In this document: positions 5,127 to 39,507 of the stretch, one piece after another
Layout of the letters: every line of letters begins with the position of its first letter
How positions within the stretch are numbered: position 1 is the first letter of the stretch
NCBI GenBank assembly: GCA_902595845.1
Contig: CACJRN010000005.1
Coordinates: forward strand, 1-64,000
DNA: 64,000 nucleotides
Direction: 5' to 3'
From: an uncultured Gammaproteobacteria bacterium
Lineage (GTDB): Bacteria; Pseudomonadota; Gammaproteobacteria; Steroidobacterales; UBA11654
Position numbers and translations under genes: made by a program
The notes under the pieces: generated by a model
Databases searched by the model: none
Told to the model about the DNA's origin: nothing
The model's input: the letters and a program-made list of their open reading frames with translations, nothing else

Positions 5127-5663
5127 ATGCAATATGACTACAAATACTGCCCAATTTGTAAAAACGAATTGACCACAAGCGAAGAAGGAGGTCTTGAGAG
5201 AAAGAGATGCTCTGATCGAGAATGTGAATTTGTGTTGTGGAATAATCCGACACCGGTTCTTGCAGCGGTTGCACATAGAAATGACGAAGTTGTTCTGGTC
5301 CAATCAATAGGCTGGCCTGTCCATTGGTTTAGTCTTATCACTGGATTTATGGAGGCAGGAGAAAGCCCTGAAGAAGGAATAGCAAGAGAAGTAAAAGAGG
5401 AAATTGGCTTGGATTGCAAAGTTGGTGAATTATTGGGCGTATATGAGTTTATTCAAATGAATCAGATCATCATTGCTTACGATGTTATTTTGTCTGAGGG
5501 CGAGATCATAATCGATAGGGAAGAACTGGTTGATTTTAAGACCATTAGGTCAGGCGAGCTCAGGCCCTGGCCAAGCGGAACAGGCCAAGCAGTAAAAAAA
5601 TGGCTTTCCCAGAGAGGCATCGAGAATAAAGAGCTTGAATTTAAAAAGCTCAAAAAAAGCTGA
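5127..5663 (+). CDS. NUDIX hydrolase with N-terminal zinc ribbon
   Basis: CPICKNEL...CSDRECEF; Nudix box GFMEAGESPEEGIAREVKEEIGL; start probably MQYDYKYCPIC. Confidence 0.9.
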   Translation: MQYDYKYCPICKNELTTSEEGGLERKRCSDRECEFVLWNNPTPVLAAVAHRNDEVVLVQSIGWPVHWFSLITGFMEAGESPEEGIAREVKEEIGLDCKVGELLGVYEFIQMNQIIIAYDVILSEGEIIIDREELVDFKTIRSGELRPWPSGTGQAVKKWLSQRGIENKELEFKKLKKS

Positions 5664-5665
5664 CC

Positions 5666-7156
5666 CTATCCGGAGTCTTCACCCCTTGTTTTTCCAATGA
5701 GGAAAGAAACCACGATCAACGCAATTGCAATGATGACATAGTATTGAACCATGAACCCAAATACAGGCGAAATGCTATCAAGACCTTCGACCAACGCATC
5801 CCCGCCAAGCAAGCCAGCCAAAACACCGCCTATTGCAGATGCTGTGAACCAGAGCCCAAACATCTGCCCCACATATTTTTTTGGAGAGTGTCTTGAGAAA
5901 GCAGCTAGGCCAACAGGAGAAAGAGCAAGCTCGCCCCATGTTTGAATAAGGTAGGTCAAAATCAGCCAACGCATATTGACTGGCGACGAAACAAGTGCCA
6001 ACTCAACAGCATACAACATGACGACAAAGCTAAGCGCCATTAAGAGGAGTCCGAAAGCAAACTTAATTGGAAGCGAAGGGTTAAGGTTTTTACGAGCAAG
6101 GTGTGTCCACATACCGGCAAAAATAGGAGCAAAAATTACCACAAAGATTGGGTTTGCAAATTGTAACCAACCAATCGGGATGACGTAACCAGAAACCGAA
6201 AGATCAGTATAGTCTCTCGCAAATATACTCAAAGAGCTTGCCGATTGGTCAAACCCAGACCAAAAAGCAGCTGCGCCGACAAAAAGAAGACCGAGGAGAA
6301 TGACATTCTTCTTCTCTTCCTTTGTGAGCCCAGCAAAAAAATACAAGTATAAAAAGTAAGTGCCTGCCACAAATGAAAGGAAGTAATAGAAGCCTTCAGC
6401 AAATGCTCTGGCATTTATTGTGTAGAGACCCATTAGGCCGGCAATGATAACAACGCTAGTTATAGCCAAGCTTATTTTTGACCACTGTATAAGACGAGAC
6501 CGTCTATGATCATCCATTGAGTTTGGTTCTGCTCCGGCAGCACCCAATAAGTGCCTAGTTTTGATGAACTGGATGACGCCAAATGTCATACCAACACCAG
6601 CGGCCCCAAAGCCCCAATGCCACCCTATTCTTTCGCCGAGATATGAGCAAATTAAAAAACCCAATGTCGAGCCAATATTAATGGCCATGTAAAAGACGTA
6701 GTATCCATTTTCTCTTCTGTCATCTTCATCCGAATACAGTTTACCTACGATTGTCGAGATGTTTCCCTTCAGCAAGCCGGTTCCAATAACAACGAATATC
6801 AAACCAAGAAAGAATGTTTGATCAATGGGTATTGCAAGCGTGAAATGACCCAGCATGATAATGATTGCACCAATTAGAACTGCTTTTTGATGCCCCAAGA
6901 TATTATCTGCAAGCCAACCACCTGGAATAACAATAAAGTAAACCATCCCAACATAAATTCCATAAATTGCCTGCGCTTCAAGGCTTGACCAACCGAGACC
7001 CGGGTTAAAGCCGGTTGCAGCTCCAGTCATGTAAAGCACGAGCAAGGCCCTCATACCGTAGTAGGACATTCGTTCCCACATTTCAGTTAGAAAAAGTGTT
7101 CTCAGGCCTATAGGATGCCCAAAAAAAGTATCATTATGAGTCGATGCTTGGTTCAT
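5666..7156 (-). CDS. POT-family proton-dependent peptide transporter
   Basis: FFGHPIGLRTLFLTEMWERMSYYGMRALLVLYM; KGNISTIVGKLY; multiple TM segments. Confidence 0.93.
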   Translation of the reverse strand: MNQASTHNDTFFGHPIGLRTLFLTEMWERMSYYGMRALLVLYMTGAATGFNPGLGWSSLEAQAIYGIYVGMVYFIVIPGGWLADNILGHQKAVLIGAIIIMLGHFTLAIPIDQTFFLGLIFVVIGTGLLKGNISTIVGKLYSDEDDRRENGYYVFYMAINIGSTLGFLICSYLGERIGWHWGFGAAGVGMTFGVIQFIKTRHLLGAAGAEPNSMDDHRRSRLIQWSKISLAITSVVIIAGLMGLYTINARAFAEGFYYFLSFVAGTYFLYLYFFAGLTKEEKKNVILLGLLFVGAAAFWSGFDQSASSLSIFARDYTDLSVSGYVIPIGWLQFANPIFVVIFAPIFAGMWTHLARKNLNPSLPIKFAFGLLLMALSFVVMLYAVELALVSSPVNMRWLILTYLIQTWGELALSPVGLAAFSRHSPKKYVGQMFGLWFTASAIGGVLAGLLGGDALVEGLDSISPVFGFMVQYYVIIAIALIVVSFLIGKTRGEDSG

Positions 7157-7907
7157 CGTTTTCTTTCTCCTCTTTATTGTTTTTTACAAGAATCCTAGAC
7201 AATAGGATGCCACATTCATAGAGCAAGTAAACAGGCACAGCCAGTAATGTTTGCGAGATTACATCCGGCGGCGTGATGAGCATTCCAACTGTGAATGCAC
7301 CCAGTAAAACATAAGCTCTGCTTGCAGCAAGCCCTTCAACAGAGGCTAATCCAGACCACACGAGTATAACAGTTGCGATTGGGACCTCGAAGGCCATCCC
7401 AAAAGCAAAAAATAGAACAAGAACAAAATCCAAGTAGCTTGATATATCGGTCATTACAGAAACACCCTCTGGTGCCGCAGAAGTAAAAAAACCGAACATC
7501 AATGGAAATACAACCCAGTATGCAAAAAGAGCCCCAGCGTAAAACAACAAAACGCTTGAGACCATCAGCGGTATTGCAAATTTTTTCTCATTTTCATAAA
7601 GGCCCGGAGCAGTGAATGCCCACATTTGAAAAAGAACAACAGGCATCGCTAAAAAAAGCGCCGCAAAAATCGTGGTCTTAAATGGTGTCAAAAAGGGTGA
7701 AGCCACTTGGGTTGCAATCATCGTTGAGCCTTCAGGTAATTGGTTCATTAATGGCATGGCTATTTGAGAGAAAACAAAATCCGCAAATGGTGCAAGACAA
7801 ATGAATAAGACCAATACGGCGCTACCAGCTTTAATTAGTCTAGACCTCAATTCAATCAAATGAGATACAAGGCTCTCTTCTTTTAAGTCTTCAGTTTGAT
7901 CATTCAT
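7134..7907 (-). CDS. tatC: Sec-independent protein translocase TatC
   Basis: LVSHLIELRSRLIKAG; FQMWAFTAPGLYENEKKF; AFGMAFEVPI. Confidence 0.96.
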   Translation of the reverse strand: MNDQTEDLKEESLVSHLIELRSRLIKAGSAVLVLFICLAPFADFVFSQIAMPLMNQLPEGSTMIATQVASPFLTPFKTTIFAALFLAMPVVLFQMWAFTAPGLYENEKKFAIPLMVSSVLLFYAGALFAYWVVFPLMFGFFTSAAPEGVSVMTDISSYLDFVLVLFFAFGMAFEVPIATVILVWSGLASVEGLAASRAYVLLGAFTVGMLITPPDVISQTLLAVPVYLLYECGILLSRILVKNNKEEKENDEPSIDS

Positions 7908-8128
7908 TCTTTTTCTTGGTCTTTGTCCTGCTCTTGAGGAACTTCAGGCCTTAGAGGCGCCAGCTCAATTTCTTGCCGCATCTGTCTTGAAAAGGAATTG
8001 ACCATTGATCTGGCCCTACCGAGATAGTTCCCGATTTTAATAGCTACTTCTGGAAGTTTATTTGGGCCAAGTACAAGCAACCCTAGGACACAAAGGACCA
8101 GCATTTCCCAAAAACCAATATCAAACAT
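7904..8128 (-). CDS. tatB: Sec-independent protein translocase TatB
   Basis: MFDIGFWEMLVLCVLGLLVLGPNKLPEV. Confidence 0.92.
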   Translation of the reverse strand: MFDIGFWEMLVLCVLGLLVLGPNKLPEVAIKIGNYLGRARSMVNSFSRQMRQEIELAPLRPEVPQEQDKDQEKE

Positions 8129-8134
8129 AACCGA

Positions 8135-8374
8135 TTAATCGTTTTTAGTTTCGCCGCTTTCTTCTTCGTTTTCTTCAGGGTCTTTGTTTAGCTCTTCACC
8201 AATCTTTGAAAGGTCAGACTCTGCGCTCTCAGCTTCATTCAAGCCTTTTCTGAAGCTTTTAATGGCACCACCAAGATCTGAGCCAATATTTTTGATTCTT
8301 TTGGTCCCAAAGATTAAGACAACAATCAGTAAAACAATCAAAAGTTGCCAAATGCTTATTCCGCTTACGCCCAT
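8135..8374 (-). CDS. tatA: Sec-independent protein translocase TatA
   Basis: [39 protein letters not shown]. Confidence 0.94.
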
Positions 8375-11876: not shown

Positions 11877-13343
11877 TTAATCCCTCCAGAATGTTGGTGT
11901 GAGTAAGACCAGTAGAGCAAAAATTTCTAGCCTGCCAAGCACCATAGCCAATACGCAGACCCACTTATTAAAATCACTGAGTGAGGCATAGTTGCTTGAA
12001 ACATCCCCTAGACCTGGTCCTAGGTTATTCAAAGATGCTGCAATCGCTGAGAAAGATGAAACCTGATCAAGCCCAGACCACATCAGAACCATTGAGAACA
12101 CAACTAAGATAATTAGATAAGCGGAAACAAAGCCCCAAACAGAATTTAAAACCTTCTCATCAACTGATTTAGCATTCATTTTTACAGGGATTTCAGCACT
12201 TGGATGAATCAATTGTTTCAATTCTTTAAATACTTGCTTTAGCATCATGAGACATCTGCCCACTTTAAGTCCGCCACCAGTGGAGCCTACACAGCCCCCA
12301 ATGAAGCTATAGACGATAAGCAGGAATGGAATAAAGGCTGGCCAAAGAAAGTAACCAGATGATGTATAACCAGTTGTTGTTCCAATCGATATCACTTGGA
12401 AAATGATCTGGGATAGCCCTGGCTGATTAGTTTCCGAAAAATCACTAAAAACAAGGCTTAGGCTCGCAATAAATGTGACTAAAATTAGAAGCAACAAGTA
12501 AGCCTTAAATTCAGAATCTTTTAAGAACCCCAAAAGCGATTTGCTTTTCCATGCAAAGAAATGGAGGGTGAAGTTAATACCAGCGAGAAACATAAATAGG
12601 GATGATATTAAATAAACTCCAGGCATGCCTTCAAAAAAGGCGAAACTGGCATCATGAGTAGAAAAACCCCCAATAGCAGTTGTTGTCATTGCATGACAGA
12701 TGGCATCAAAAAAAGACATACCCGCAGACAAATATCCAAGCATGCAGAGAAAGGTGAGAGCTAAGTATATTCTAGCAAGCGACTTTGCTGTCTCCGTTTG
12801 TCTAGGCGTAAATTTTGAATCTTGAATGCCTGTTCCTGATTCAGCTCGATACAGTTGCATTCCACCCACTCCCAATAGCGGCATGATCGCGACAGCCAAT
12901 ACAATGATTCCTAGTCCTCCAAGCCATTGAAGCTGAGAACGATAAAAAAGCAGACCTTTAGGCAAATCATCCAGGCCAGTCAGAATTGTTGCGCCAGTTG
13001 TAGTGAGCCCTGAAGTCGACTCAAAAACCGCATCAGTCAAGCTGATATTGCTGTCTGGCAACATAAAAAATGGAATGGATCCAAAAAGCGCCAAAATAAC
13101 CCAAAAAAGAGCGACAATTAAGAAACCTTCATGCAGCCTGATATCAGAAGAATCACTTCTAGAGGGCACCCAAAGAAGCAGGCCCATGATCAAGGTAAAG
13201 AAGAAGGAGGCCACAAAAGAGGATGCCGTCAAAACATCTGACTCTACCGCAGATACGATGAAAGGAATCACCATTGAGAAACTAAAGACCATCATTAGCA
13301 TCCCCAATGTTTTAAAAACCGATTTGTAGTAACCCAAAGCCAT
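11877..13343 (-). CDS. trkH: Trk potassium uptake system membrane protein TrkH
   Basis: ESTSGLTTTGATIL; AICHAMTTTAIGGFSTHDAS; STGGGLKVGR; GRLEIFALLVLLTPTFWR. Confidence 0.95.
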   Translation of the reverse strand: MALGYYKSVFKTLGMLMMVFSFSMVIPFIVSAVESDVLTASSFVASFFFTLIMGLLLWVPSRSDSSDIRLHEGFLIVALFWVILALFGSIPFFMLPDSNISLTDAVFESTSGLTTTGATILTGLDDLPKGLLFYRSQLQWLGGLGIIVLAVAIMPLLGVGGMQLYRAESGTGIQDSKFTPRQTETAKSLARIYLALTFLCMLGYLSAGMSFFDAICHAMTTTAIGGFSTHDASFAFFEGMPGVYLISSLFMFLAGINFTLHFFAWKSKSLLGFLKDSEFKAYLLLLILVTFIASLSLVFSDFSETNQPGLSQIIFQVISIGTTTGYTSSGYFLWPAFIPFLLIVYSFIGGCVGSTGGGLKVGRCLMMLKQVFKELKQLIHPSAEIPVKMNAKSVDEKVLNSVWGFVSAYLIILVVFSMVLMWSGLDQVSSFSAIAASLNNLGPGLGDVSSNYASLSDFNKWVCVLAMVLGRLEIFALLVLLTPTFWRD

Positions 13344-13373
13344 ATATGCTTCCCAATAATTGAATCAGTGGGA

Positions 13374-14732
13374 TTAAGCGAAAATTGTTTCTATTTCACC
13401 AATAGTATCTCGGTTATCAATAAAAACTACAACATGATCATCGGCCTCGATCATTGTGTCTCCGTGAACAGCTTTGATTTCACCCTGGTGTGAAACGATG
13501 CCGGTGATGAAAGAGCCTTCGGGAAGGTTAATTTCTTCAACTGTTTTCCCTACCGCATTAGATTCCTCGTGATCATGAGCGACTGCTTCAAGCGCCTCTG
13601 CATTTCCTCTCTTTAATTTATGAACGGTAACCACATCACCTTTTCTTACATGAGAAAGCAGGGCGCTGGTTGTGATTCGTTCAGCGGAGATCGCGATGTC
13701 AATTGTTCCAGCCTCTGCCAAATCTGATAATGAGTCCTTATTGGCAATGGCCATGACCTTTTTTGCGCCCATTCTTTTTGCAACCATTGCCGAGAGTATG
13801 TTCGCTTCTTCTGAGTTGGTGGTCGCAACAAAAACATCACTATTTTCTATGTTTTCTTCTTTAAGAAGCGAGTCATCTGCTGAGTCACCCTTTAATACGA
13901 TTGCAGACTCAAGTTTCTCGGCAATATATTTGGCTCTCTCAGAATCTTTTTCGATGATTTTTACATGATTATCTTTTTCCAAAAGGGCAGCGAGCTTATA
14001 GCCAACTCTTCCGCCGCCAGCAATGGTTATGTTCCTCGCCTTTTCTTGATCTTGGTTGAACTCAGTAATCATATAATCAATATCTTCAGGTGCAGCAATA
14101 AAATAAACCTCATCACCTTCTTTAATCACTGTTGCCCCTCCTGGCGAGATCATTTCTCCATCTCTATAGACTGCAGCAATCCTTACTTTTTCATTTCCTA
14201 AGTGCACATGAAGATGACTTATTGGCTGGTCTACAAGAAACCCATGTTGCTTTGTTTTCACGCCAACCATTTTGATTTTACCCGCTGCAAAATTTAGCAC
14301 TTGAAAAGCACCAGGATGCTCGATTACCTCTGCAATATAATTTGTGACCAATGCTTCGGGGCTGAGTATAAAGTCCACAGGTATATTACCTTCTGAAAAG
14401 AGATCAGAGTGTTTTGTGTACTCTGCTTGGCGTATTCTTGCAATTTTTGTTTGAGTATTAAAAAGGGTGGAAGCGATTTGGCAAGAAACCATATTGACTT
14501 CATCGCTGCTGGTAACGGCAATGAGCATATCTGCATTCTCAGCACCTGCGGACATCAAAATATTGGGATGAGAAGCATTTCCTTCAATGACCCTGAGATC
14601 AGATTTAGATGAAAGCTTGTCCAGTCTTTCATCATCCATATCAACAACGGTCACCTCATTGTCCTGCTCGCTTGCAAGCTGAATTGCTGAGGCTGACCCT
14701 ACTCGACCCGCACCAAGTATTAAAATATTCAT
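13374..14732 (-). CDS. trkA: Trk potassium transport system NAD-binding protein TrkA
   Basis: two RCK-N domains: MNILILGAGRVGSASAIQLA and ITIAGGGRVGYKLAALLE. Confidence 0.95.
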   Translation of the reverse strand: MNILILGAGRVGSASAIQLASEQDNEVTVVDMDDERLDKLSSKSDLRVIEGNASHPNILMSAGAENADMLIAVTSSDEVNMVSCQIASTLFNTQTKIARIRQAEYTKHSDLFSEGNIPVDFILSPEALVTNYIAEVIEHPGAFQVLNFAAGKIKMVGVKTKQHGFLVDQPISHLHVHLGNEKVRIAAVYRDGEMISPGGATVIKEGDEVYFIAAPEDIDYMITEFNQDQEKARNITIAGGGRVGYKLAALLEKDNHVKIIEKDSERAKYIAEKLESAIVLKGDSADDSLLKEENIENSDVFVATTNSEEANILSAMVAKRMGAKKVMAIANKDSLSDLAEAGTIDIAISAERITTSALLSHVRKGDVVTVHKLKRGNAEALEAVAHDHEESNAVGKTVEEINLPEGSFITGIVSHQGEIKAVHGDTMIEADDHVVVFIDNRDTIGEIETIFA

Positions 14733-28963: not shown

Positions 28964-29587
28964 TCAATTTGTTTCAAAGAAACTTTTAAGAGATTCAGCA
29001 ACTTTTTTTGATTGATTTATTTTATTGGCCTTACCTTCAATACAGAGACCAATCTCTGTAACAACCTTCTCAAGCTGATCATTGACCAAAACATGATCAA
29101 ACTTATTTGACTGTTCCAGGTCTAAAACCGCTTGATTGAAACGATATGCTATTTCTTGATCAGAGTCAGTGCCTCTATTTTTTAATCTGGCCAGCAAAAC
29201 TTCCTTTGATGGCGGTATCAGAAAAATCATCACGCATGAAGGCATGCTGCTTTTGATTTGTAGCGCGCCTTGCCAATCGATTTCTAAGATTACATTTACC
29301 CCTTCTTTTAGGTTTTCCGAAACGCTTTTTTTCTCTGTGCCATAAAAATTTCCAAAGACAGTTGCGTGCTCCAAAAAATCATCATTTTGAATCATGTTTG
29401 TAAAGGTTTTTTCGCTTACAAAGAAATAATCAAGGCCTTCTTTTTCATTTTCACGCTTTTTTCTGGTTGTGAATGAAACCGATGCCTCCAAGTTGGTGCT
29501 TTGTTGCAGTAGTTTTTTTACGACTGTTGTTTTTCCAGTTCCAGATGGGGCGGATATTACAATTAATTTTCCAGTTATTTCTTTCAA
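28964..29587 (-). CDS. gmk: Guanylate kinase
   Basis: LIVISAPSGTGKTTVVKKLL; VSFTTRKKRENEKEGLDYFFVS; ILEIDWQGALQIK. Confidence 0.96.
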   Translation of the reverse strand: MKEITGKLIVISAPSGTGKTTVVKKLLQQSTNLEASVSFTTRKKRENEKEGLDYFFVSEKTFTNMIQNDDFLEHATVFGNFYGTEKKSVSENLKEGVNVILEIDWQGALQIKSSMPSCVMIFLIPPSKEVLLARLKNRGTDSDQEIAYRFNQAVLDLEQSNKFDHVLVNDQLEKVVTEIGLCIEGKANKINQSKKVAESLKSFFETN

Positions 29588-29649
29588 GATGAGATTAAAA
29601 GGTAAAATATTTTAAATAATTAACTTCATTCTACTAGGTGCAAAAAACC

Positions 29650-30255
29650 ATGAAAAGAAAGATTGTTATAGCCACGATGAATGATCATAAAGCTTCAGAG
29701 ATCAGATCCCTTATAGGAGATCGTTATGATGTAATGACGCAGAGTTCATTCTCTATACCTTCTGTTCACGAGACAGGAAAAACATTCGAAGAAAATGCGC
29801 TGATAAAAGCCGGTGAGGTTTCACAAAAAACCGGTCTATTGACGCTTGCTGACGATTCTGGTTTAGAGGTTGATTTGCTTCAAGGCAATCCTGGTGTCTA
29901 TTCAGCAAGGTATGCTGGTCCAAATGCAACTGATGCTGAAAACAACAAAAAGCTCTTGGCAGAATTAGAGGAATTTAAGGATGAAAAAATCTCTGCCAGG
30001 TTTCAATCGGTTATAGTCCTCATAGACCCAGTGGATAATTCGAAAAATATCTTTCATGGCAGCTGGGAAGGTCGAATCACACTCAAGCCAAGAGGCAAAA
30101 ATGGGTTTGGATACGACCCGCTTTTTTATATAGAGGATCTTGAGTCTACAGCAGGTGAACTTAACCAGGCCGAAAAAAACAAACTCAGCCACAGGGCAAT
30201 TGCAATGAGGAAAGTTACTGATTATTTGAAAAAAAAGTCATTAGATACAGAATAA
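29650..30255 (+). CDS. rdgB: dITP/XTP pyrophosphatase (RdgB/HAM1 family)
   Basis: KIVIATMNDHKASEIR; TLADDSGLEVDLLQGNPGVYSARYAG; GKNGFGYDPLFY; ATG at 29650 or GTG at 29638. Confidence 0.95.
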   Translation: MKRKIVIATMNDHKASEIRSLIGDRYDVMTQSSFSIPSVHETGKTFEENALIKAGEVSQKTGLLTLADDSGLEVDLLQGNPGVYSARYAGPNATDAENNKKLLAELEEFKDEKISARFQSVIVLIDPVDNSKNIFHGSWEGRITLKPRGKNGFGYDPLFYIEDLESTAGELNQAEKNKLSHRAIAMRKVTDYLKKKSLDTE

Positions 30256-30657
30256 ACCCTTTAAGATTAAGGATTTATTGAATCAAGAGTAAAATTAGGA
30301 TGAGTCTAAATTATTCACAGACTGAAACTTTATTTATTAATCGTCTCTAATTAGAGTTTATTTCACAAATATTACACGAATACATCCTCATAAGTAATTG
30401 AAAAGTATGATAAATAGATTAATTGTATAAAAAATATACAATTTTTCTTCACGCAAGCCACATTTAGGGCTCATTAAATTTTTTTTATTTATCCACAATC
30501 TTATCCACAGATTTTGTGGATAAAAAATAATTGAATTTTTAAAATTATGCATTTCAAATAAGCTTGAAAAAACCATAGCCTATGGGTATGCTTGCGATCC
30601 CAATTTTATTTATGGGCATTTAATCTCAAGAAAGATTTAAGTTACTAAAAGAGCGAC
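30256..30657. other. Candidate chromosomal replication origin (oriC-like DnaA-box cluster in AT-rich intergenic region)
   Basis: TTATCCACA at 30489-30497 and 30501-30509, TGTGGATAA at 30515-30523, TTATTCACA at 30311-30319; largest intergenic gap in the window; line 30481-30540 is 20% G+C. Confidence 0.6.
30421..30443. repeat. 9-bp perfect inverted repeat (possible rdgB terminator or AT-rich origin structure)
   Basis: AATTGTATA-AAAAA-TATACAATT followed by TTT. Confidence 0.5.
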
Positions 30658-30864
30658 ATGAAAAAAGAAATACATCCAGAATATTCTGTAATCAAAGTCA
30701 CATGCTCATGTGGCAACTCCTTTGAAACCAAATCAACACTCGGTGAAGATTTGTCTATAGAGGTTTGCTCGGCATGTCATCCATTCTATACAGGCCAACA
30801 AAAAATTGTCGATACCGCTGGTCGAGTTGATAAATTCAGAAAAAGATTTGGGATCAAGCAGTAA
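30658..30864 (+). CDS. rpmE: Ribosomal protein bL31 (zinc-binding C+ form)
   Basis: [43 protein letters not shown]. Confidence 0.96.
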
Positions 30865-30885: not shown

Positions 30886-32172
30886 ATGGCAGAAAAAGTT
30901 ACACTTCAGAAAAATACACAAACTGTTGATCTCGAAACCAAAGATGCTTCAGTCGGACCAAGTGTTATCGATTTAAAAAACCTTTATCACGACACTGGGT
31001 TCTTTACCTTTGATCCCTCATATTCAACCACTGCAAGCTGCGAAAGTTACATTACATATATTGATGGCGCTAAAGGAATTCTGGAATACAGGGGTTATCC
31101 AATAGAGCAACTTGCAGAACAAAGTACTTACTTGGAGGTCGCTTACTTGCTCTTCAATGGAGAGCTACCATCGAGCAATATTGCTCTTGATGAGTTCAGA
31201 TCAGATGTCAAACACAATATGACTCTACCAGAGAATATGGACCTGATTTTTTCTGGCTTTGGAAGAGATGCACACCCAATGGCGATGCTTACAACAGCAG
31301 TAGCAGCATTGTCTGGATCCTACCATGAGGGCATAAACGTTAGGGACAAAGAGCATCAAAAAGAATTCTTCTTTAATATACTTGGCAAGATGCCAATACT
31401 GGTTGCAAATGTTTTCAATCACAACCAAAAAGACGCGAATGTTGATTACGATGAGTCTTTGTCATATTCAGAAAATATTTTGAAATTATTCTTTGGATGG
31501 AAAGATGGCTATGAAATAGACCCAATTCTTTCAAAGGCACTTGATATTCTCTTGATATTGCATGCAGACCATGAGCAAAACTGCAGCACCTCTTCTGTTA
31601 GGTTAACAGGAAGTTCTGGCACAAATCCGTATGCAGCAATTGCAGCCGGAGTTGCAGCTTTATGGGGCCCTGCCCATGGAGGAGCGAACGAAGCTGTAGT
31701 TAGAATGTTTGATGAGATTGGGTCAAAAGACAATATTCCTCAATACATTGAGAAGGCGAAAGACAAAAATGATCCATTTAGGCTCATGGGATTTGGACAT
31801 CGTGTTTATAAAAATTATGATCCTAGAGCAACAATAATTAGAAGTCAGTGCCATAAAGTTTTGGAATCGACCGGCAATGACTCTAGTCCCATGTTCCAAC
31901 TTGCGCTTGAGTTAGAAGAAATTGCCTTAAACGATGACTATTTTGTTCAAAGAAATCTCTACCCCAACGTAGATTTCTATTCTGGATTGATTTATCAGGC
32001 AATGGACATACCTAAGGAGATGTTTACTGCAATGTTTGCCTTGGCAAGAACTGTTGGTTGGGCAACACACTGGTGCGAGATGATGTCAAACCCTAAGCAC
32101 AGAATAGGTCGTCCAAGACAGCTCTATCTAGGTGAAAAAAAGAGGGACTATGTCCCAATCAGTGATCGCTAG
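30886..32172 (+). CDS. gltA: Citrate synthase
   Basis: GILEYRGYPIEQLAEQSTYLEVAYLL; LHADHEQNCSTSSVRL; GPAHGGANEAV; MGFGHRVYKNYDPRA. Confidence 0.97.
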   Translation: MAEKVTLQKNTQTVDLETKDASVGPSVIDLKNLYHDTGFFTFDPSYSTTASCESYITYIDGAKGILEYRGYPIEQLAEQSTYLEVAYLLFNGELPSSNIALDEFRSDVKHNMTLPENMDLIFSGFGRDAHPMAMLTTAVAALSGSYHEGINVRDKEHQKEFFFNILGKMPILVANVFNHNQKDANVDYDESLSYSENILKLFFGWKDGYEIDPILSKALDILLILHADHEQNCSTSSVRLTGSSGTNPYAAIAAGVAALWGPAHGGANEAVVRMFDEIGSKDNIPQYIEKAKDKNDPFRLMGFGHRVYKNYDPRATIIRSQCHKVLESTGNDSSPMFQLALELEEIALNDDYFVQRNLYPNVDFYSGLIYQAMDIPKEMFTAMFALARTVGWATHWCEMMSNPKHRIGRPRQLYLGEKKRDYVPISDR

Positions 32173-39123: not shown

Positions 39124-39507
39124 CTAAATCAGAGCAAGACCCATTAAAATCAGACATACAATAGAGCCCAGCCATACCACTGTGCGGATGTATAAGATTC
39201 CGGCTGCGTAGACCAAGAGATAAAGGAACCTGAGAAAAACCCAAGTCATCGCATACATTGTGTTATCCACATTTGTAATGATTGAAAGGATTGCGAGCGT
39301 GAGAAATGCAGGCAAGCTTTCTTGCAGATTCGAAGACGCCCTAAGAATTCTAGCGGAGACCGAAGCTGGATCAATTGTTATCTCACTATCTCTATTCGAC
39401 AATAGGTAAGACATGCTTTTAAAATTGATTACCAATGCACCAGTCATTGGAATGATCCAAATTTGAAGCAGCGCCAATGTAAGCGCCATGACTATTATTG
39501 TGACCAT
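39124..39507 (-). CDS. MAPEG family membrane protein
   Basis: 4 TM; ASVSARILRASSNLQESLPAFLTLAI; RTVVWLGS. Confidence 0.75.
   Translation of the reverse strand: MVTIIVMALTLALLQIWIIPMTGALVINFKSMSYLLSNRDSEITIDPASVSARILRASSNLQESLPAFLTLAILSIITNVDNTMYAMTWVFLRFLYLLVYAAGILYIRTVVWLGSIVCLILMGLALI

Follow-up and report, generated by a model that had tools for sequence, protein, structure and literature searches.

The window analysed here is a 64,000-nucleotide stretch of DNA in contig C5 of a fragmented genome (G000; 1.435 Mb in 25 contigs). This genome and its relatives are contigs of metagenome-assembled genomes, in which open reading frames were called crudely (longest frame, at least 100 aa). Three plus-strand genes of the window are considered: rdgB, encoding a non-canonical purine NTP pyrophosphatase (29638-30255; TIGR00042, 181 bits, above the cut-off), rpmE, encoding ribosomal protein L31 (30658-30864; NF000612, 1.4e-35), and gltA, encoding citrate synthase (30886-32172; NF004126, 1.2e-185). 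Between the rdgB stop at 30255 and the rpmE ATG at 30658 lies a gap of 402 bp, whose GC content in 100-bp windows was 19-31% as against ca. 40% in the surroundings, in agreement with a preliminary description that had noted an AT-rich gap of this length. The gap contains four DnaA boxes, and the positions and strands given for them in that description were exact on re-checking. Box III (30489-30497) and box II (30501-30509) are perfect matches to TTATCCACA on the plus strand, and box I (30515-30523) is TTATCCACA on the minus strand, opposed to box II. Box III, 3 bp, box II, 5 bp and the inverted box I together form the plus-strand core TTATCCACAatcTTATCCACAgatttTGTGGATAA (30489-30523), termed DARS-type on the grounds described below. 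The distal box TTATTCACA (30311-30319, plus strand) is located 190 bp before box II.

The motif TTATNCACA was observed six times in the window, while 2.96 occurrences (sd 1.72) were expected from shuffles, so the window-wide total is unremarkable; four of the six occurrences fall within the rdgB-rpmE gap, three of them within 35 bp. That three perfect 9-mers in so short a stretch are not due to chance, as had been argued, was confirmed, and their conservation is a stronger proof of this than chance statistics. The DARS-type core is the sole such site in its genome when up to three mismatches are tolerated. A lone perfect TTATCCACA was also seen at 39263-39271, inside a minus-strand open reading frame (39124-39507), and chance would account for it.

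Two further putative sites lie between the distal box and the core. The Fis-type site GTATAAAAAATATAC (30425-30439, no strand assigned) is an exact match to GNNYRNNNNNYRNNC, the consensus being its only basis, and begins 76 bp before box II; the IHF-type site TTTCAATTACTTA (30391-30403, minus strand) has one mismatch to WATCAANNNNTTR and begins 110 bp before box II. Both are loose consensus matches in a stretch of 23% GC, where single matches are cheap, and the one argument for them is therefore their fixed position across relatives. In 47 loci of the order, chosen for a distal box at 175-205 bp, Fis-type matches occurred at offsets 76-80 in 35 loci and in two at most at any other offset, and IHF-type minus-strand matches occurred at offsets 110-113, again in 35 loci, with no other offset represented more than once. 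The distal box was found at 188-194 bp in 45 of the 47 loci, a figure that is partly a product of how the loci were chosen, unlike those for the IHF- and Fis-type sites. The Fis consensus of GTATAAAAAATATAC was kept in two genomes of the genus (G007 and G005) despite replacement of the A-tract by a T-tract. Among 13 genomes examined, all had the IHF gene himA and 10 had Fis; the genome under study is included in both counts, with its Fis gene cut by a contig end.

Past the core, at a distance of ca. 40 bp, a promoter-like match for rpmE was found (30564-30592, plus strand; TTGAAA, 17 bp, TATGCT; 9 of 12 positions matching), and this match is conserved in the genus alignment. The number of promoter-like matches in the region did not exceed that in shuffles, and a search for a structured rpmE leader with Rfam gave nothing above chance.

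The same gap, with rdgB before it and rpmE after it, was found in five other genomes of the genus (G002, G004, G005, G006 and G007). TTATCCACAGATTTTGTGGATAA was invariant in all six genomes, so the box cluster, whose presence in close relatives had been proposed as a check, is indeed shared by them. A third box starts 12 bp before TTATCCACAGATTTTGTGGATAA throughout the genus; this box III is perfect in G002, G004, G006 and the genome under study, and elsewhere (G005 and G007) it is degenerate but in place. TTATTCACA starts 190-191 bp before TTATCCACAGATTTTGTGGATAA in the genus, and a further genome, G008, showed the same layout with the distal box at 194 bp. At the level of the order, the inverted pair TTATNCACA-N5-TGTGNATAA was present in 217 of 296 genomes, usually once, while the reversed control pattern was present in none of the 296; about a quarter of the order genomes lack an exact inverted pair. 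Each position of box II was conserved to more than 90% in the 47 order loci. These observations establish that the DnaA-box cluster is real and ancient. The exact pair occurred in none of the genomes listed for one genus of the order (g14; G022, G035, G046, G057 and others), which suggests its loss or divergence there.

The gene context was examined in the same way. Directly after the module, rpmE and gltA followed in 28 of 30 order loci, and no matches to MutH, RppH or UvrB were obtained in these 30 loci. In other families, loci around rdgB showed the same distances, the cluster either adjoining rdgB or lying ca. 1.2 kb off; the greater distance from rdgB was seen in many families of the order. 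Hence, the flanks named in the preliminary description, rdgB and rpmE, hold for the genus, but the neighbours that stay constant throughout the order, rpmE and gltA, both lie on the same side. The order consists largely of uncultivated gammaproteobacteria, and in most of it the cluster precedes rpmE, a ribosomal-protein gene. Contigs of Woeseiaceae and of other gammaproteobacteria, retrieved via GltA, also carried the pair before rpmE-gltA, again with a spacing of 190 bp. In a class-wide sample, a close match to the core was obtained in 155 of 276 genomes, with none for the reversed control among the entries listed; this is in keeping with a published remark that many Proteobacteria have DARS-like sequences (PMC10380432). 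Outside the order, the core adjoins rpmE at one class locus (L317) and uvrB at another (L319), the latter being the arrangement of E. coli DARS1. In G013, G011, G048, G107, G135, G147 and G153, a further DARS-type core was seen at another place in the genome.

DnaA-reactivating sequences (DARS) of E. coli act as switches for recharging the initiator DnaA; they prefer ADP-DnaA and stimulate the release of its ADP, and DARS2 also requires an IHF and a Fis site, each at a fixed distance from its core. The three boxes of the core are spaced identically in DARS1 and DARS2, with box I opposite to boxes II and III (PMC5742627), and the head-to-head arrangement of boxes I and II is a characteristic and essential feature of them (PMC10380432). 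DARS1 and DARS2 are located in the promoter regions of uvrB and mutH (PMC5835720). DARS2 has the order core, IHF, Fis (PMC4245941), and DARS1 works without a need for IHF or Fis (PMC4585315). The essential boxes of datA, whose effect on DnaA is the opposite, all point one way (PMC5742627). We scanned 20 kb of E. coli K-12 sequence spanning DARS1, DARS2 and datA for the geometry of the core, allowing up to five mismatches in 24 positions. Exactly two matches were obtained, DARS1 (TAATACACAtggTTATCCACAggaatAGTGGATAA) and DARS2 (TTCTTCACAactCTATCCACAgaaaaGGTGAATAA), and the 9-3-9-5-9 geometry found no match at datA in the same scan. The spacings of 3 bp and 5 bp in the window are identical to those of both DARS cores, and box I is likewise opposed to boxes II and III and head to head with box II.

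The likeness to DARS2, in the rppH-mutH region, extends beyond the core, whose spacing and orientation are identical. In the E. coli locus, the IHF-type site is found at -99, on the same strand as here; further out come a Fis-type site at -137 and, at -197, a perfect box whose orientation is reversed. Both loci carry an IHF-type site ca. 100 bp away on the box III side, a perfect DnaA box at ca. 190-197 bp on that side, beyond the IHF- and Fis-type sites, and a Fis-type site in the same stretch. Unlike in DARS2, the Fis-type site of the rpmE locus lies between the core and the IHF-type site, the distal box has the opposite orientation, and the boxes are closer to the consensus than those of E. 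coli. The address also differs, the locus being situated at rpmE-gltA and not at mutH. Judged by sequence, the candidate module thus appears to consist of the parts of DARS2, except that Fis and IHF have changed places and the distal box is reversed. With DARS1 (bioD-uvrB), it shares the core geometry and a location in a promoter region, but the scan of DARS1 gave no fixed upstream module. In contrast to both E. coli loci, the rpmE locus is near the origin, 41-210 kb from dnaA. Like datA, it is a non-coding DnaA-box cluster with an IHF site (here an IHF-type match) near the origin; the datA boxes, however, are unidirectional and spaced differently, whereas box I is inverted here and conserved so. 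Identity with datA was rejected on box direction and on the absence of a geometry match.

The main reading of the preliminary description was that the gap is the chromosome origin, to be checked by cumulative GC skew. The minimum of cumulative GC skew does fall within ca. 1 kb of the cluster in the six genus genomes (at 29463 in the window and at rdgB in the five relatives). In G002 and G007, however, in each of which a single contig carries dnaA as well as the gap, cumulative skew closely followed cumulative gene orientation (r = 0.94 and 0.99, respectively). Since coding strands are enriched in G at the first and second codon positions, raw skew tracks gene orientation; genes also run away from the gap, which makes raw skew misleading there, and the minimum is thus an artefact of gene orientation.

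Fourfold-degenerate sites were analysed gene by gene, and the breakpoint that best split the genes by direction was compared with those of 200 permutations. By both GC and AT skew, the switch was found at dnaA: in G002, at 124.4 and 125.6 kb, with dnaA at 125.5-126.8 kb and the gap at 186 kb; in G007, at 100.2 kb, with dnaA at 100.7-102.0 kb and the gap at 59.5 kb. None of the 200 permutations was as good in either case, and the distance from the gap to dnaA is 41-60 kb in these two genomes. When genes transcribed away from dnaA were compared with those transcribed toward it (five genomes), the differences were -0.13 to -0.27 for GC and +0.23 to +0.35 for AT, whereas the same comparison around the gap (six genomes) gave +0.02 to +0.11 and -0.16 to 0.00, i.e. 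no switch of that sign. The switch in strand asymmetry does not take place at the gap. Genes run mostly away from dnaA in all five genomes (48:23, 41:31, 37:13, 33:5 and 34:4). At the fourfold sites of the genus (G000 C13, G002 C1, G004 C6, G006 C9 and G007 C1), the leading strand from dnaA is C- and A-rich, an unusual sign; dnaA was read as the origin and not as the terminus based on gene direction, the parS/mnmG neighbourhood and relatives with classical skew.

Such relatives include two single contigs from other families, in which the minimum was taken over the 400 kb examined. In G037 (3.1 Mb), the skew minimum is at 2697404, dnaA at 2686078-2687385 and the cluster at 2595972; in G055 (3.5 Mb), the minimum is at 3459984, dnaA starts from 3462110 and the cluster is at 3250483. 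The minimum is thus within ca. 11 kb of dnaA in both, with the cluster at a distance of 90 and 210 kb, respectively, where the cumulative skew falls steadily. The remainder of G037, sampled sparsely, is consistent with a single origin close to dnaA and a terminus at about 1.2 Mb. G024 was less clear: over the 180 kb that were examined, the minimum fell at 119 kb; dnaA lies at 143 kb, and the cluster, at 209 kb, is where the skew rises. In the genome under study, contig C13 carries dnaA (6925-8218), mnmG/gidA (11918-13768) and a single exact parS site at 5210. This parS-like sequence, GTTCCACGTGGAAC (C13:5210-5223), occurs as one exact site per genome in G000, G002, G004, G006 and G007, within ca. 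2 kb of dnaA in all five; in other families, two parS-like sites 609-612 bp apart were seen on the dnaA contig. As an origin marker, parS did not favour the cluster, its sites being near dnaA. We place the origin close to dnaA, with an uncertainty of a few kb. An origin at rdgB/rpmE, ancestral to the whole order, was rejected in view of the single-contig relatives and the fourfold-site switch at dnaA, and the gammaBOriS paper does not mention an origin near rdgB, hemW or rpmE.

That the gap is the oriC of this lineage, displaced from dnaA and gidA, is accordingly very improbable. The skew minimum near the cluster in six genomes and the perfect boxes in an AT-rich gap, a feature shared with gammaproteobacterial oriC regions (dnaA- or mnmG-adjacent), would speak for it. 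However, the minimum is accounted for by gene orientation, GC and AT at fourfold sites switch at dnaA, where the dnaA/parS/mnmG neighbourhood carries the switch, the cluster of G037 and G055 is far from the minimum near dnaA, and unlike in an oriC there are just four boxes, in a module also found in families with an origin near dnaA. A cumulative GC-skew minimum together with perfect DnaA boxes can therefore point with apparent confidence to a site other than the origin, and such false pointers matter when origins are called automatically in metagenome-assembled genomes.

DnaA is a known transcription factor, and the gap might be a DnaA-responsive operator for rpmE, perhaps also for gltA, with no role in recharging DnaA. 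The module lies just upstream of rpmE in 28 of the 30 order loci and ends ca. 40 bp before the promoter-like match. A simple operator would need neither the exact DARS core geometry nor fixed IHF- and Fis-type sites at 76-113 bp and a box at 190 bp, and we regard this explanation as unlikely. An effect on rpmE is possible given the position of the promoter-like match, and it is compatible with the DARS reading, since E. coli DARS1 and DARS2 are also situated in promoters. In favour of a datA-like or pure titration site, which would lower free or ATP-bound DnaA, are the high-affinity boxes flanking an IHF-type site near the origin, as in E. coli datA (PMC5742627). The unidirectional essential boxes of datA (PMC5742627) are at odds with the inverted box I, and the core geometry matched DARS1 and DARS2 but not the datA region, leaving little probability for such a site.

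Taken together, the gap probably contains a DARS2-like sequence for reactivating DnaA, at a new address and with the order of Fis and IHF swapped, as predicted from sequence comparison. The preliminary description had offered a DnaA-binding regulatory locus as a fallback, and that view is supported. By analogy with E. coli, we infer that DnaA, IHF and Fis bind the gap and that the outcome is nucleotide exchange. In the proposed mechanism, ADP-DnaA would bind boxes III, II and I, and the head-to-head placement of DnaA on boxes II and I would loosen ADP. Apo-DnaA would then depart and take up ATP, and the level of ATP-DnaA would rise before the next initiation. Bending by IHF at ca. -110 and binding of Fis at ca. 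-78 may shape the complex and gate its timing, and a further regulatory contact may come from DnaA bound to the distal box at -190.

DARS have been dissected in E. coli, and their conservation is documented for relatives such as Vibrio and Shewanella; no link of DARS to rpmE, rdgB or Woeseia was found among the open-access papers listed. It is conceivable, although we would put it at somewhat less than an even chance, that DARS-type recharging is an ancestral, class-wide control in Gammaproteobacteria, and that the version of this lineage was arranged independently, gated by IHF and Fis and fixed at rpmE near the origin. If so, reactivation would be timed by early gene dosage, as opposed to the mid-arm position in E. 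coli. An order-wide DARS2-like module with a short recognisable pattern at a ribosomal-protein promoter would also provide natural designs for testing spacings and protein order.

Several minor observations concern DnaA in these genomes. The dnaA gene of G000 (C13:6925-8218; L163) is split over two reading frames at ca. codon 270 of the model, reflecting either an assembly error or a broken gene; dnaA is intact in G002, G004, G006 and G007. The 227-aa DnaA-related protein encoded at C9:34242 probably represents Hda. Two genomes of the genus share a 26-bp stretch containing two DnaA boxes, TTATTCACACTAGAGTCTTATACACA, which was seen in identical form at G009 C5:100812, G009 C12:844 and G007 C3:66162.
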